A DNA stretch of 64,000 nt from Microbacteriaceae bacterium 3FA27C10 (GTDB taxonomy: Bacteria; Actinomycetota; Actinomycetes; Actinomycetales; Microbacteriaceae), in contig SCNI01000002.1 of assembly GCA_005502775.1 (NCBI GenBank), positions 124,001 through 188,000 of the forward strand, given 5' to 3'. The notes beneath the pieces were generated by a model. That model made no database searches and was not told the DNA's origin. It worked only from the letters and a program-made list of their open reading frames with translations. This document shows positions 54,617 to 60,520 of this stretch, one piece after another. Made by a program: the position numbers and the translations under genes. How positions within the stretch are numbered: position 1 is the stretch's first letter; each line of letters opens with the position of its first letter.

Positions 54617-54827
54617 CTTCTGCTCCTTAAGCGACTCGAACGGTGACGGGCTGGTAGTGCCATCCAAGCACTCTTCTGTAACGCCTATGCGTCAATCACC
54701 TGTGTTTCGCTGTACGCGTAGTGGGAATACGGGGGCTGTGTCGTGGCCGGGCGGTGTCGCCGGCGGCGGTTAGCCTTGGTGGTTGGAACGCCTGGCCGTT
54801 CCGCAGTCCTACCCCGAAGGAGACCCG

Positions 54828-56918
54828 GTGGCCTCACCGTCCGACTACTCTGCCCGGCACCTGTCCGTTCTCGAAGGCCTCGAGGCGGTGCGCAAGCGCC
54901 CCGGCATGTACATCGGCTCCACCGACTCACGCGGTCTCATGCACTGCCTCTGGGAGATCATCGACAACTCGGTCGACGAGGCTCTCGGCGGCTTCGGAAC
55001 GAGCATCGACATCCGTCTGCACTCCGACGGCAGCGTGGAGGTGCGCGACACCGCGCGCGGCATCCCGGTCGACATCGAGCCGAAGACGGGTCTCTCGGGC
55101 GTCGAGGTCGTGTTCACCAAGCTGCACGCCGGGGGAAAGTTCGGCTCGGGCTCCTATGCGGCATCCGGTGGTCTGCACGGCGTCGGCGCCTCCGTCGTCA
55201 ATGCACTCTCGGAGCGGCTCGACGTCGAGGTCGACCGCGACGGCAAGACCTGGGCCATGTCGTTCCACCGTGGTGAGCCCGGCATCTTCGCCGACACGGC
55301 GAAGGGCGAGCCGAGCCCGGATGCGCCGTTCACGCCGTTCGAGAAGAAGAGCGAGCTGCGGGTGGTCGGCAAGGTCGCCAAGGGCGTCACCGGCACCCGG
55401 GTGCGCTACTGGGCCGACCGTCAGATCTTCACCAAGGGCGCCGAGTTCCAGACCGACGACCTCCTCGTGCGCGCCCGGCAGACGGCTTTCCTCGTGCCCG
55501 GCCTCCGCATCGCGATCGACGACGAGCGCGGCGAGGAACCCCGTGCCGAGTCGTTCCAGTTCGAAGGCGGCATCTCCGAGTTCGTCGAGCATCTCTCTCC
55601 CGACGCCCCGCTCACCGACATCTGGCGCATCACCGGAACGGGCAGCTTCACCGAGACCGTCCCCGTTCTCTCGGAGTCGGGTGCCATGCTCCCCACCGAG
55701 CTCACGCGCGAGTGCACCGTCGACCTCGCGATGCGCTGGGGCATCGGCTACGACACCACCTTCCGCAGCTTCGTGAACATCATCTCCACCCCGAAGGGCG
55801 GCACCCACCAGGCCGGCTTCGAGGCCGGTCTGCTGCGCTTCCTGCGCACCACGGTGGAGGCCAACGCCCGCCGCCTCAAGGTGGGCAACGACAAGCTCGA
55901 CAAAGAAGACGTGCTCGCCGGCCTCACCGCCGTACTCACGGTGCGCCTGCCCGAGCCGCAGTTCGAGGGGCAGACGAAGGAGGTGCTCGGCACCCCGGCC
56001 GTGCGCAACATCGTGTCGACCGTGCTCACCAAGGGCCTCGCGGAGCGCTTCTCGTCGACCAAGCGCGACGACAAGGCGCAGTCCTCGCTCGTGCTCGACA
56101 AGGTGGTGGCCGAGATGAAGTCGCGCATCTCGGCGCGGGCGCACAAAGAGACGCAGCGCCGCAAGAACGCGCTGGAGTCCTCATCCCTGCCGGCGAAGCT
56201 CGTCGACTGCCGCAGCTCCGACGTCACCAACAGCGAGCTCTTCATCGTGGAGGGCGACTCGGCCCTCGGCACGGCGAAGCTCGCTCGCAACAGCGAGTTC
56301 CAAGCCCTGCTGCCCATCCGCGGCAAGATCCTCAACGTGCAGAAGGCCTCGGTGGCCGACATGCTCTCGAACGCCGAGTGCGCCTCCATCATCCAGGTGA
56401 TCGGGGCCGGATCCGGGCGCTCCTTCGACCTCTCCGCGGCGCGCTACGGCAAGATCATCCTGATGAGCGACGCGGATGTCGACGGCGCCCACATCCGCAC
56501 CCTGCTGCTCACGCTGTTCTTCCGTTACATGCGGCCGCTGATCGAAGACGGCCGGGTCTACGCTGCGGTGCCTCCGCTGCACCGCGTGGTGGCGATCAAC
56601 CCCGGCTCGAAGCCCAACGAGACCGTCTACACCTACTCCGAAGCCGAGCTGCAGGGCGTGCTGGCCGGGCTCAAGAAGTCGGGCCGCAAGTACCAGGACC
56701 CGATCCAGCGCTACAAGGGCCTCGGGGAGATGGATGCCGACCAGCTCGCGTCCACGACGATGGACAAGCGCTACCGCACCCTCCGCCGGGTGGGTGTGGC
56801 CGACGCGGCCATCGCCGAGAAGATGTTCGAACTGCTGATGGGCGACGAGGTGCCGCCGCGCAAGGAGTTCATCATCCAGGGCTCCGACAAGCTCTCGCGC
56901 GACCGCATCGACGTGTAG
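54828..56918 (+). CDS. parE: DNA topoisomerase IV subunit B (GyrB/ParE family)
   Basis: ATPase subunit partnering ParC. The 696-residue protein has the GHKL domain (VRKRPGMYIGSTDSRGLMH, IIDNSVDEAL, GGLHGVGASVVNAL), transducer, TOPRIM metal site EGDSALGTAKLARN, and DADVDGAHIRTLLLTLFFRYM with YKGLGEMDADQL near the C-terminus. GTG 54828 has a GAAGGAG site. The 211-bp upstream gap, shared with DUF7455, must carry its promoter. It is convergent with gatD. Confidence 0.92.
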   Translation: MASPSDYSARHLSVLEGLEAVRKRPGMYIGSTDSRGLMHCLWEIIDNSVDEALGGFGTSIDIRLHSDGSVEVRDTARGIPVDIEPKTGLSGVEVVFTKLHAGGKFGSGSYAASGGLHGVGASVVNALSERLDVEVDRDGKTWAMSFHRGEPGIFADTAKGEPSPDAPFTPFEKKSELRVVGKVAKGVTGTRVRYWADRQIFTKGAEFQTDDLLVRARQTAFLVPGLRIAIDDERGEEPRAESFQFEGGISEFVEHLSPDAPLTDIWRITGTGSFTETVPVLSESGAMLPTELTRECTVDLAMRWGIGYDTTFRSFVNIISTPKGGTHQAGFEAGLLRFLRTTVEANARRLKVGNDKLDKEDVLAGLTAVLTVRLPEPQFEGQTKEVLGTPAVRNIVSTVLTKGLAERFSSTKRDDKAQSSLVLDKVVAEMKSRISARAHKETQRRKNALESSSLPAKLVDCRSSDVTNSELFIVEGDSALGTAKLARNSEFQALLPIRGKILNVQKASVADMLSNAECASIIQVIGAGSGRSFDLSAARYGKIILMSDADVDGAHIRTLLLTLFFRYMRPLIEDGRVYAAVPPLHRVVAINPGSKPNETVYTYSEAELQGVLAGLKKSGRKYQDPIQRYKGLGEMDADQLASTTMDKRYRTLRRVGVADAAIAEKMFELLMGDEVPPRKEFIIQGSDKLSRDRIDV

Positions 56919-56956: not shown

Positions 56957-57712
56957 CTACTCGCTGAGGGGGGCTGCCGCGATGGTGGCGCGGGCCTGGC
57001 GGGCGCGCTCGTCGATGGTGCGAAGGGCCTCGGCCGCTTCGGGAGTCGGGCCGGCGTAGTCGAGGCGGCGGCGTGCGCGCGCGCTGTCGAGCAGAACGTC
57101 GGCGAGGGCGGGGTTGTTCGCGAGGATCGGCCCGTGCATGTGGGTGCCGAGCAGGTCGCCCTCCCAGAAGCCCTCTTCACCCGGGGTCTCGGTGTTGCCG
57201 CGGCCGTAGACCACGCGTCCGAGGGTGCCGTGGGGGCCGACGTCGACGAACGAGCCGCGGTTCTCGAATCCCACGACGGTGCCGAGCCGCGGTGACTCCA
57301 CCACGAAGTCGCCCACCACACGCGTGCCGCCGTGCCGGGTGACCACCGGGAACACGCCGGCACCCTCGAGCGACTCGCCGCCCTCGAGCACGACCTTCTC
57401 GCCCAGGAGCTGGAATCCGGCTCCGATGGCGAGGAAGGGTCGGCCGTCGGCGGCCAGGGCCCGGAGCTCCGGCGCCACGGCGCTGACGAGCGGATGCGCG
57501 AGCAGTTCGGCCGAGACCGGACCGCTGCCGATGAACACCAGATCGGCGTCGTCGAAGCCGAGCGGTGCACCCTCGTCGTAGGTGGTCACCTCGACGGGCA
57601 GGCCGTGCCACTCGGCTCGCCGGCGCAGGATGTCGACGTTGCCGCTCTCGCCGTTCAGCCCCAGCAGACGCGGGAACAGATGCAGGATGCGCAGGGCGCC
57701 CTCGTTCGTCAT
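56957..57712 (-). CDS. gatD: GatD-like lipid II glutamine amidotransferase subunit with Cys-to-Gly at the active site
   Basis: A 251-residue class I amidotransferase-fold protein, clearly GatD by the N-terminus (LHLFPRLLGLNGESGNVDIL), GFENRGSFVDVGPHGTLGRV, and LLGTHMHGPILANN. GatD normally hydrolyses glutamine to feed ammonia to MurT. The nucleophile position, normally IC in TICGGYQ-like motifs, reads AIGAGFQLLG: Gly97 (codon GGA, 57422-57424). His193 and an Arg (131) aligned with the glutamine-selecting Arg of S. aureus GatD are retained. Glutaminase activity should therefore be absent. It is coupled to murT by a one-base overlap (TGATG). Confidence 0.9.
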   Translation of the reverse strand: MTNEGALRILHLFPRLLGLNGESGNVDILRRRAEWHGLPVEVTTYDEGAPLGFDDADLVFIGSGPVSAELLAHPLVSAVAPELRALAADGRPFLAIGAGFQLLGEKVVLEGGESLEGAGVFPVVTRHGGTRVVGDFVVESPRLGTVVGFENRGSFVDVGPHGTLGRVVYGRGNTETPGEEGFWEGDLLGTHMHGPILANNPALADVLLDSARARRRLDYAGPTPEAAEALRTIDERARQARATIAAAPLSE

Positions 57713-59001
57713 CAGGCCGCTCCCCCGCCCTCGAGCTCCTTGAAGCCCAGGATCTTGCGGATCAGCATCATCTGCTCGTAGTTCAAGATCATCACCTTGT
57801 GGCCGGTGGCGGGCGCAGGCCGCGCCAGGAACGACTTGAGGGCCCGGCGCACGTCGAGATCGACCTCGCCGACCGGGATGCCCAGATAGCCGAGCCGCAC
57901 GGCGAACTGCCACGCCTTCGACCCGGTGATGCCGTCGACGTGGTCGAGCGCCGAGAAGTCGATGTCGTAGATCCAGGACGGATCGGGGGTGCCCTCGTCG
58001 ACGGCGAGGAAGACCTGCTCCGGCGCGCTCTCGAGCGAGTCGAGGTTCAGCTGCAGGGACGCGGGGTTCTTCATCATGATGATCTCGATCTGCTCGCCCT
58101 CCACCTCCAGCAGCTCGCCACGGCCGTAGACGGTCTCGAGCGAATCCAGCGCCTCCACCACGAACTGCGGTCTGAACAGCGGACCGAGCACGTTCTGCGC
58201 CGCCGCGGTGGCGCCCGCCGCATCCAGGGCGTAGTGCATGCCCCGGGCCGGCAGCCGCACCTCGATGGTGGTTCCGCCGATCGCGAGCGTCGCGCGCGCG
58301 CCGTGCAGGGCGACGACCTCCACCGCCGCCGGCCGGCTTCCGGGAGCCACGGTCGTCTCACCGAAGCGATCGGCCGACGCCACCCCGTGGCTCGCGCCGG
58401 CCACGAGCTCGGGCGTGCCGCCGAAGAAGGACACCTCGCGGTTCGGTCGGGCCGGGATGCGCGTGTCGAGGTCGACGAGGAAGTTGTCCTCGCGGTTCAG
58501 CACGAGACCCTCGGTGGCCGAGGCCGCGACCCGGCCGAGCATCGCGGCCACGCGATCCGGCTCGTGATAACGGTTGAGCTGGTCGATCTGGATGTTCAGC
58601 AACAGCACCGTGCGAGGCTTCAGCAGCTCGGCGAGCCGGGTTCCGTAGCCCTCGTCGACCTCGAGGATCGCGATGTCGGAGTCGAGCCGGCCGCTCGCGG
58701 ACACCTCGGAGAGCAGCGCCGAGGCGATGCCCTGCGGGAGATTGCCGCCCGAGGGGTTGGTGAACACCTTCAGTCCGTGCCGCCGCATGATGGCGGCGAG
58801 CATGTTCGTGGTGGTCGACTTGCCGTTCGAGCCGGAGACCGCCACGACACCGTTCGGGATGCTCGCGATGGTGCGTTCCAGGAACCCGGGGTCGATCTTC
58901 AGAGCGATGTTGCCGGGGATCGCCGAGCCGCCGCCGCGCAGGCGCGCGGCGACCCGGACGGCCCGCCCGACGAGGACGGCGGCCGTGGTGCGGAGGCCCA
59001 T
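57712..59001 (-). CDS. murT: MurT-like Mur ligase without the Cys4 zinc ribbon
   Basis: A 429-residue Mur ligase-family protein that in other Gram-positives activates the D-Glu alpha-carboxyl of lipid II. The ATP site AVSGSNGKSTTTNML lies at 54-68, EVDEGYGTRL at 114-123, NIQIDQLNRYHEPDRV at 136-151, and the C-terminal DUF1727 domain includes GRGELLEVEGEQI, MMKNPASLQLNLD and PDPSWIYDIDF (339-349). Known MurT proteins carry a Cys4 zinc ribbon in the middle domain; this protein contains no cysteine. It lies 4 bp after sigA and overlaps gatD by one base. Confidence 0.9.
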   Translation of the reverse strand: MGLRTTAAVLVGRAVRVAARLRGGGSAIPGNIALKIDPGFLERTIASIPNGVVAVSGSNGKSTTTNMLAAIMRRHGLKVFTNPSGGNLPQGIASALLSEVSASGRLDSDIAILEVDEGYGTRLAELLKPRTVLLLNIQIDQLNRYHEPDRVAAMLGRVAASATEGLVLNREDNFLVDLDTRIPARPNREVSFFGGTPELVAGASHGVASADRFGETTVAPGSRPAAVEVVALHGARATLAIGGTTIEVRLPARGMHYALDAAGATAAAQNVLGPLFRPQFVVEALDSLETVYGRGELLEVEGEQIEIIMMKNPASLQLNLDSLESAPEQVFLAVDEGTPDPSWIYDIDFSALDHVDGITGSKAWQFAVRLGYLGIPVGEVDLDVRRALKSFLARPAPATGHKVMILNYEQMMLIRKILGFKELEGGGAA

Positions 59002-59005
59002 CGGC

Positions 59006-60304
59006 CTACTCGAGGTAGTCGCGCAGCGACTGCGAGCGGGACGGGTGGCGCAGCTTGGCCATGGTCTTCGACTCGATCTGGCGGATGCGCTCACGCGTCA
59101 CGCCGAAGGTGTCGCCGATCTGGTCGAGGGTCTTCGGCATGCCGTCGCCGAGCCCGAAGCGCATCCGGATCACGCCGGCCTCGCGCTCGGAGAGCGAGTC
59201 GAGAAGCGACTCGAGCTGCTTCTGCAGCATCGTGAAGCCCACCGCGTCGGCCGGCACCACCGCCTCGGTGTCTTCGATCAGGTCGCCGAACTCGCTGTCG
59301 CCGTCCTCACCCAGGGGCGTGTGCAGCGAGATCGGCTCGCGGCCGTACTTCTGCACCTCGACGACCTTCTCGGGCGTCATGTCGAGTTCGCGCGAGAGCT
59401 CCTCGGGCGTGGGCTCGCGGCCCAGGTCCTGCAGCATCTGGCGCTGGACGCGAGCCAGCTTGTTGATGACCTCCACCATGTGCACCGGGATGCGGATGGT
59501 TCGCGCCTGGTCGGCCATGGCGCGCGTGATCGCCTGACGGATCCACCAGGTGGCGTAGGTCGAGAACTTGAAGCCCTTGGTGTAGTCGAACTTCTCGACG
59601 GCACGGATCAGGCCCAGGTTGCCCTCCTGGATCAGGTCGAGGAACTGCATTCCACGGCCGGTGTAGCGCTTGGCCAGCGAGACGACCAGACGGAGGTTGG
59701 CGCCGAGCAGGTGGCTCTTGGCACGCTGGCCGTCTTTCGCCACCCACTGCAGCTCGCGCTTGGCGGAGGGGCTGAGGTTGTCGGTGTTCGCCAGCTTGTC
59801 CTCGGCGAACAGGCCCGCCTCGATGCGCATCGCGAGCTCGACCTCTTCGGCCGCGTTCAGCAGCGCGACCTTTCCGATCTGCTTCAGGTAGTCCTTGACC
59901 GGGTCGGCGGTCGCACCCGTGATGGTGCTGGAGTAGACCGGCACATCGTCTTCGTCGTCGACCAGCGAGAGCACGAGGGCGCCGCTGGGCAGAGCCTCTT
60001 CGGCCGCGGCCGGCTTCTTCGCGGAGTCGGCGTCGTCGTCGCCGTCGGCGGCTTCGGCATCCGTGTCGTCGTCGGCGACGACGACCTCCACGTCATCCGT
60101 CTCCTCGACGGCGTCGTCGTCGACCTCGTCTCCGGGCTCGATGTCGGCCTCGTCGTCGGCGGCCTTGGCAGCCTTCTTGGGAGCAGCCTTCGCTGCGGTC
60201 TTCTTGGCCGGCGCGCGCTTCGCCGCGGGGCGGGGCGCAGCCGACGCGACCTCTTCAGGCGCCGTTGCCTTGTCGAGGGTGTCTGCGGACTTGGGGGTGG
60301 CCAT
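59006..60304 (-). CDS. sigA: primary RNA polymerase sigma factor
   Basis: Housekeeping sigma-70, 432 residues. It has a Lys/Ala-rich then Asp/Glu-rich N-terminus (about 15-110), region 1.2, region 2 ([49 protein letters not shown]), region 3 ([30 protein letters not shown]), and region 4 with the helix-turn-helix ([29 protein letters not shown]). ATG 60304 has an AAAGGTG site 6 nt upstream; upstream in-frame starts are rejected. murT and gatD follow with almost no gap. Confidence 0.97.
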
Positions 60305-60520
60305 GAGTTCACCTTTCATGCCACGCGATGTCATCGCGGAGAACACGGGAGCCCTGGCAAGTCGGAATCCCGAAAATCTCCGCCGCGTGAAGATGTTTTT
60401 GGACATTACTAAGACCCATGTCAAGTGGGAGATTCTCGCAGCCCGAACAGCAGCTGCGTCCCCTCACAGGAACGGGTCTTCATTATCAATTATTGCACGG
60501 AAAAGCTAGGGTTCCCGCCG

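Follow-up and report, generated by a model that had tools for sequence, protein, structure and literature searches.

The closest described counterparts of the locus presented here are the MurT/GatD complexes of Staphylococcus aureus and Streptococcus pneumoniae (6gs2, 6fqb), lipid II isoglutaminyl synthases made up of a Mur ligase, MurT, and a glutaminase, GatD, whose normal reaction is the addition of ammonia to a building block of the wall. In S. aureus GatD, each of the substitutions C94A, H189A, and R128A abolishes glutaminase activity (excerpts of PMC5871853). In S. pneumoniae MurT, Asn85 is assigned to the acceptor carboxylate and Asp355 points into the GatD site (excerpts of PMC6085368). 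According to the available parts of Muench et al. (PMC3266927), the S. aureus GatD mutant C94G, in which TGT is changed into GGA, lost all glutamine-dependent amidation; its ammonia-dependent amidation was unaffected at pH 8.5, ammonia was ineffective at pH 7.5, and MurT on its own showed no activity with any nitrogen donor. The other relevant enzyme is CofE, the F420-0:glutamate ligase (2phn, 7uld). This amide ligase attaches an amino acid and has a fold other than that of MurT. A relative of CofE fills, in other genomes, the chromosomal slot that is occupied by murT and gatD in the genome studied here.

In type-B walls, cross-linking occurs via the alpha-carboxyl of D-Glu, which carries the bridge. 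The B2beta and B2gamma bridges of Schleifer and Kandler reportedly consist of one D-diamino acid, and bridge types containing glycine need two bonds. To our knowledge, no enzymes building this D-Glu alpha-carboxyl bridge have been assigned, and in the open-access literature no title or abstract start suggests any, most subscription journals lying outside the search. Wall compositions are given in the accessible portions of several descriptions. Herbiconiux is B2gamma, with D- and L-Dab and possibly glycine, this being a genus description and not the wall of the present strain. Subtercola vilae is B2gamma with Ala:Gly:Dab of 1.1:1.0:1.7, and Rhodoluna is B2beta/B10, with the peptides Mur-Gly, Gly-D-Glu, and D-Ala-D-Dab and about one Gly per Glu. 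Glaciihabitans has Dab (B10), Salinibacterium Lys/Orn, Lacisediminihabitans Dab (B1alpha), and Microbacterium Lys, Orn, or Dab. Further sources are PMC10011130, PMC11319209, PMC4156110, PMC5945732, PMC12113805, PMC7033078, PMC10757982, PMC12823222, PMC6196244, PMC4511665, PMC12786226, and PMC6113628.

The window, that is, the whole stretch of 64,000 nucleotides analyzed from Microbacteriaceae bacterium 3FA27C10, carries three consecutive genes on the minus strand. rpoD (sigA; 59006..60424) is followed by murT (57712..59001, 429 aa), which starts a few bases past the rpoD stop, and by gatD (56957..57712, 251 aa), whose start overlaps the murT stop by one base (TGATG). On the plus strand, a gene for a parE-like topoisomerase IV subunit B (54783..56918, start approximate) converges with gatD. 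rpoD and parE thus border a slot, upstream and downstream, respectively. GatD scores 74.1 bits against PF07685 (cut-off 27), and the nine best structure matches of its AlphaFold2 model (pLDDT 94.7) are all GatD chains from MurT/GatD structures; the class I glutaminase fold is present according to the profile, the model, and the structure search. MurT matches the MurT C-terminal domain PF08353 (34.9 bits, cut-off 25) and the Mur ligase middle domain PF08245 (43.9 bits, cut-off 24). Both proteins miss the NCBIfam isoglutaminyl-synthase equivalog cut-offs by far, with 146 of 450 bits for GatD and 110 of 800 bits for MurT.

Codon 97 of gatD (57422..57424, minus strand) reads GGA, the plus strand being tcc, and the resulting Gly97 aligns with the catalytic Cys94 of S. 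aureus GatD (6gs2, E 5.8e-40; also 5n9m). The catalytic histidine is kept as His193 (57134..57136, minus strand), aligned with His189 of 6gs2, and so is Arg131 (57320..57322, minus strand), which corresponds by alignment to the glutamine-sequestering Arg128. GatD is therefore a Cys-less subunit, or pseudo-glutaminase. With eight relatives, dN/dS (NG86) is 0.19-0.37 for GatD and 0.14-0.23 for MurT; because of the former values, gatD is not decaying. The initial annotation had read Gly at the catalytic position, with the fold, the histidine, and the arginine retained, in an intact gene coupled to murT, and all of this stands. It had also raised a second intact pair elsewhere in the genome as a point against its interpretation; the pair of the window is the sole one found, since the MurT_C profile search of the 3FA27C10 genome gave one match and, of four GATase_3 matches, the three others than GatD look like PdxT, PurQ, and HisH from their sequences. 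Four named Herbiconiux loci have GatDs 81-87% and MurTs 87-89% identical to those of the window, so that the genome is Herbiconiux-like and very probably Herbiconiux.

Compared with the S. aureus and S. pneumoniae complexes, the window pair has the same two subunits, folds, and ligase residues, with 34-35% identity between S. aureus GatD and the window GatD model over the Foldseek alignment. It differs by the missing cysteine, by its position after rpoD, by its scores far under the equivalog cut-offs and, among the 74 related GatDs described below, by loss of the catalytic histidine in 22. In the 72 MurTs with a Cys-less partner, including that of 3FA27C10 and setting apart the H-type (see below) and two odd MurTs, the equivalents of S. 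pneumoniae Asn85, Glu110, Asp112, Glu113, Asn132, Arg304, and Asp355 are invariant. At the position of Lys321, 49 of them have Lys and 23 have Gln, and the equivalents of the adenine-pocket residues Asn270 and Asn273 are mostly Tyr and Asp. The C94G mutant has the same residue and even the same new codon as the window GatD, and it still partners MurT with free ammonia at pH 8.5 (excerpts of PMC3266927). However, that mutant was made in the laboratory and uses ammonia, whereas the window state is natural, widespread, and under selection. Because the MurT residues are kept and in view of the C94G data, the natural pseudo-GatD looks like a required, non-hydrolyzing partner of a working ligase. 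By the same analogy, the proposed loss of glutamine-driven D-isoglutamine formation would be expected, and the proposed retention of GatD as a needed partner is plausible, S. aureus MurT alone being inactive whatever the nitrogen donor.

We then consider how far this state extends. Among 120 Microbacteriaceae genomes, the classes were assembled by hand from profile searches and read loci, and their counts and Fisher tests ignore relatedness. A pseudo-type pair is found in 77 genomes, in five of which (G013, G027, G038, G081, and G095) MurT was found well and GatD was left unread. Seven genomes have an H-type pair, with a Zn-ribbon MurT; in the H-type GatDs read, His stands in place of the catalytic Cys, and the catalytic His is replaced by Ile or Leu. 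Canonical Cys pairs occur in 14 genomes, 12 of which have no other pair and two a pseudo-type pair as well. Two genomes (G005 and G053) have other Cys-less pairs, 16 have a CofE-like gene without MurT, and in six neither MurT nor a CofE-like gene was found, “MurT-less” meaning that profile A1 matched only the Mur-ligase background. The pair is therefore not family-wide, given the 16 genomes with CofE-like and no MurT, the 12 with the canonical pair only, and the six with neither. Hence, the generality within Microbacteriaceae assumed in the initial annotation does not hold, and the idea that all Microbacteriaceae use MurT/pseudo-GatD is rejected because of the CofE-like genomes without MurT.

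The missing cysteine recurs. In a tree set of 113 GatDs, 33 have Cys (14 from the family and 19 from outside) and 80 do not; since, moreover, Cys is absent from every Microbacteriaceae GatD seen behind an rpoD tail, the loss is beyond chance. The Cys/no-Cys label changes at least twice on a quick GatD tree, built without bootstrap, with the Cys columns included, and containing three long branches. The pseudo group, defined by the missing Cys, comprises 72 MurTs and 74 GatDs, of which G113 contributes two and G053 one. At the Cys position, these GatDs have G (54), A (14), S (3), N (2), or T (1); the catalytic His is retained in 52 and lost in 22. Of the 74, 65 have Asp at position 19 and 68 have Arg at position 128. 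In named Microbacteriaceae loci, 0 of 52 GatDs among the matches listed have Cys (G 37, A 12, H 3). The MurT_C score provides an independent mark: all 14 family MurTs at 71-95 bits have Cys-bearing partners, and MurTs at 63 bits or less have partners read without Cys. Outside Microbacteriaceae, Cys and His are kept in 19 of 20 GatDs from other families of Actinomycetales, these 20 being our choice from 129 non-family genomes with a MurT_C match. The interpretation in the initial annotation is favored by these 19 GatDs and weakened by the exception, a fused Cys-less MurT-GatD in family f7. In that exception (G433, locus L211) and its congener G442 (L195), MurT and GatD form one chain of about 800 aa, in which Arg and Gln stand at the Cys and His positions, respectively, and the acidic motif of MurT is ETRE in place of EVDE.

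The slot order rpoD-[murT-gatD]-parE is recurrent in Microbacteriaceae. Wherever the junction is visible, pseudo-type pairs almost always follow rpoD (an rpoD tail was seen in 103 loci, counting repeats and H-type), with 79 pseudo-type slots in coded loci and 62 in named loci among the matches listed. Canonical pairs have an rpoD tail in none of their loci, and rpoD adjoins parE in all nine canonical-only genomes inspected out of 12. In 14 of the 16 CofE-like genomes, detected at E below 1e-110, the CofE-like gene lies in the slot; the contigs end in the other two (G044 and G094). None of these 16 genomes of the 120-genome sample also has any MurT. The CofE-like protein matches Pfam F420_ligase PF01996 (6.2e-12), and CofE structures are the sole matches of its AlphaFold2 model (pLDDT 85) below E 0.001; with 32.5 bits against the TIGR01916 cut-off of 180.65, it is not CofE proper.

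Named genomes give a similar picture in a scan where 80 loci were listed of at least 119 stretches. CofE-like was searched genome-wide in 50 of the 80, MurT being seen at the loci only; it was found in 12, and in the same 12 the slot is filled by it. These 12 slots, among the matches listed, belong to Microbacterium sp. Gd 4-13, three Salinibacterium, Pseudolysinimonas yzui, Homoserinibacter gongjuensis, Gulosibacter sediminis, Agromyces seonyuensis, and MAGs called Lacisediminihabitans, Rhodoglobus, Microbacteriaceae, and Micrococcales. Named pseudo-type slots include Herbiconiux, Subtercola, Clavibacter, Leifsonia, Agromyces, Curtobacterium, Cryobacterium, and Pseudoclavibacter. The four named H-type slots among the matches listed are from Schumannella soli, two Glaciihabitans MAGs, and one Actinomycetota MAG; two further Glaciihabitans MAGs have the pseudo-type pair. 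Both contents can occur within one genus, as in genus codes g7, g9, g12, g79, and g85. g79 is Agromyces, its genome G255 having a CofE-like protein identical to that of A. seonyuensis, and the other Agromyces seen have the pseudo-type pair; g85 is Microbacterium, with a CofE-like protein 98% identical to a named one. Likewise, a fourth Salinibacterium, S. soli, has a pseudo-type MurT.

Slots hold further genes besides these. A slot-type ATP-grasp gene (PF14397) occurs in 14/16 CofE-like, 4/7 H-type, 2/77 pseudo-type, 0/12 canonical-only, and 0/8 other genomes, the total of 20 excluding a partial match (1e-33) in the canonical-only genome G014. The CofE-like genomes devoid of it are G036 (Pseudolysinimonas yzui) and G058. 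Both pseudo-type genomes having it are of genus g18, where, at locus L078, a MurT variant adjoins the ATP-grasp ligase. When slots complete to parE are considered, ATP-grasp is present in 17/20 CofE-like and 1/56 pseudo-type slots of coded loci, with MurT-less slots chosen for the absence of MurT and H-type rows repeating the same genomes; in named loci, the numbers are 5/6 and 0/35 among the matches listed. Alanine-racemase-like genes do not discriminate the modules, because they are present with both: they are found in 21/79 coded and 16/62 named pseudo-type slots and in 11/23 coded and 3/12 named CofE-like slots (named loci among the matches listed). MurJ is encoded in one slot and a diaminobutyrate transaminase in four, one protein tested exceeding the EctB equivalog cut-off. 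Genome-wide, TIGR00709, the diaminobutyrate transaminase profile, has matches in 21/120 genomes with no clear link to slot type (pseudo-type 12/77, CofE-like 5/16, canonical-only 2/12, ligase-less 2/6), and at E below 1e-110 none was found in 3FA27C10. FemAB is found in 1/120 genomes at E 1e-15, so that the usual tRNA-dependent bridge enzymes are unlikely to account for the bridge in Microbacteriaceae.

Altogether, the sequences lead us to consider it probable that MurT and Cys-less GatD form an ATP-dependent amino-acid ligase of type-B peptidoglycan, adding the first bridge residue onto the D-Glu alpha-carboxyl. This proposal is based on a dead glutaminase signature, an intact ligase signature, selection, a recurrent slot, and exclusion with CofE-like in the sample; from these, we infer the reaction, the acceptor and, above all, the identity of the amine. 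MurT would activate the D-Glu alpha-carboxyl of a precursor, lipid-linked or UDP-linked, by forming an acyl phosphate; the first bridge residue, in place of ammonia from GatD, would then attack it with its amino group. GatD, having lost glutamine hydrolysis, would stay as the structural partner that MurT needs and would perhaps aid binding of the amine. That the amine is a D-diamino acid has, in our estimate, slightly less than an even chance; in the Herbiconiux-like genome (the genus being B2gamma with D-Dab), the residue would most likely be D-2,4-diaminobutyrate. The suggestion in the initial annotation that MurT acts as a bridge ligase is thus favored by the slot, the CofE-like/ATP-grasp pattern, and the near-absence of FemAB, the ligated amino acid being its more conjectural part. 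Several observations count against it: the 12/120 genomes with the canonical pair only, the 6/120 ligase-less genomes, the fused Cys-less pair of f7, the CofE-like gene of A. seonyuensis, the 2/16 CofE-like genomes without ATP-grasp, the two pseudo-type genomes with it, the racemase-like genes present with both modules, and the diaminobutyrate transaminase, which lacks a clear link to slot type and has no match in 3FA27C10 despite the Dab in the wall of Herbiconiux.

One ligase (MurT/pseudo-GatD) as opposed to two (CofE-like plus ATP-grasp) fits one-bond as opposed to two-bond bridges. We put forward, more tentatively, that the rpoD-parE slot may be a type-B cross-bridge locus with exchangeable modules. 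The pseudo-type pair would add a D-diamino acid (D-Dab, D-Orn) in one step for B2 bridges, CofE-like plus ATP-grasp would build D-Glu-Gly-diamino acid in two steps for Gly-containing bridges, and the Zn-ribbon MurT with its His-type GatD would be a third module. As one case, the MAG of Lacisediminihabitans, a B1alpha genus, has CofE-like; in such comparisons, the chemically analyzed species mostly differ from the species with slots seen.

Other explanations bear on the same evidence. A first-bridge ligase using glycine or another small amino acid, and not a D-diamino acid, as the amine would require the shortest step for a MurT evolved for ammonia, and the adjacency of the g18 MurT variant to ATP-grasp (L078; both g18 genomes) together with ATP-grasp in 4/7 H-type genomes points the same way. 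We nevertheless judge it unlikely, since a slot-type ATP-grasp for the second bond is present in just 2/77 pseudo-type genomes. The wall data speak against it as well: Gly is about equimolar with Glu in Rhodoluna, which also has Mur-Gly, and with Ala in S. vilae, so that the Gly could be consumed at position 1, the Rhodoluna slot itself not being seen by name. A change of target, the pair acting elsewhere than on the D-Glu alpha-carboxyl, in the wall or outside, is compatible with a substrate that we infer and with the adenine-pocket residues Asn270 and Asn273 having become mostly Tyr and Asp. It appears very unlikely, however, as several slot neighbors are wall or bridge-amino-acid genes and the acceptor-carboxylate Asn85 is kept in 72/72 MurTs.

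Continued amidation of D-Glu from free ammonia is, for us, quite unlikely: the type-B D-Glu carboxyl carries the bridge, and the CofE-like exclusion and the ATP-grasp pattern would be left unexplained. The ligase residues are intact and S. aureus C94G is active with ammonia at pH 8.5, but ammonia failed at pH 7.5 (excerpts of PMC3266927). As to a sequencing error or a decaying relic, the Cys position does vary freely among G, A, S, N, and T. Yet the selection test contradicts decay, with dN/dS of 0.14-0.37 over the two genes, the Cys loss recurs across relatives, and the pair is present in 77/120 genomes; a relic is extremely improbable and a sequencing error is rejected on the same selection and recurrence grounds.

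The Cys-less slot rpoD-[murT-gatD]-parE and its CofE-like alternative are new here. If the bridge-ligase proposal is true, the loss of glutaminase chemistry, with the subunit retained, turned an amidotransferase into an amino-acid ligase, and the fold of an F420-cofactor ligase was recruited to the wall. Candidates for the type-B bridge are named at one locus, i.e., murT with Cys-less gatD, the CofE-like gene, and the ATP-grasp gene. A module is predicted for each genome, so that a long-standing chemotaxonomic trait becomes testable at the gene level. The locus also offers an example of a dead subunit under selection with, probably, an altered reaction.

A few loci depart from the common arrangements. 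In genome G053, the rpoD-parE slot holds two alanine-racemase-like genes; a separate cluster (L116) combines genes for a Zn-ribbon MurT and a Cys-less GatD with a distant CofE-like gene. At L117 (G005), the GatD of a MurT-GatD pair has Asn aligned with the catalytic Cys; the pair is distant from all others and was possibly acquired from elsewhere. In the 927,303-base genome G015 (L084), the GatD that follows rpoD carries Ser in place of the catalytic Cys. A tandem pair of alanine-racemase-like genes is found in slots such as L176, L221, L238, and L251 and may encode a two-subunit racemase acting on the bridge diamino acid; in L176, one of the two is shorter and both are under the alr equivalog cut-off. 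Finally, in Amnibacterium sp. CER49 (L263), the slot is empty and a canonical Cys pair lies elsewhere, whereas Amnibacterium flavum (L240) has a pseudo-type MurT after rpoD, a contrast that possibly corresponds to a switch of wall type.
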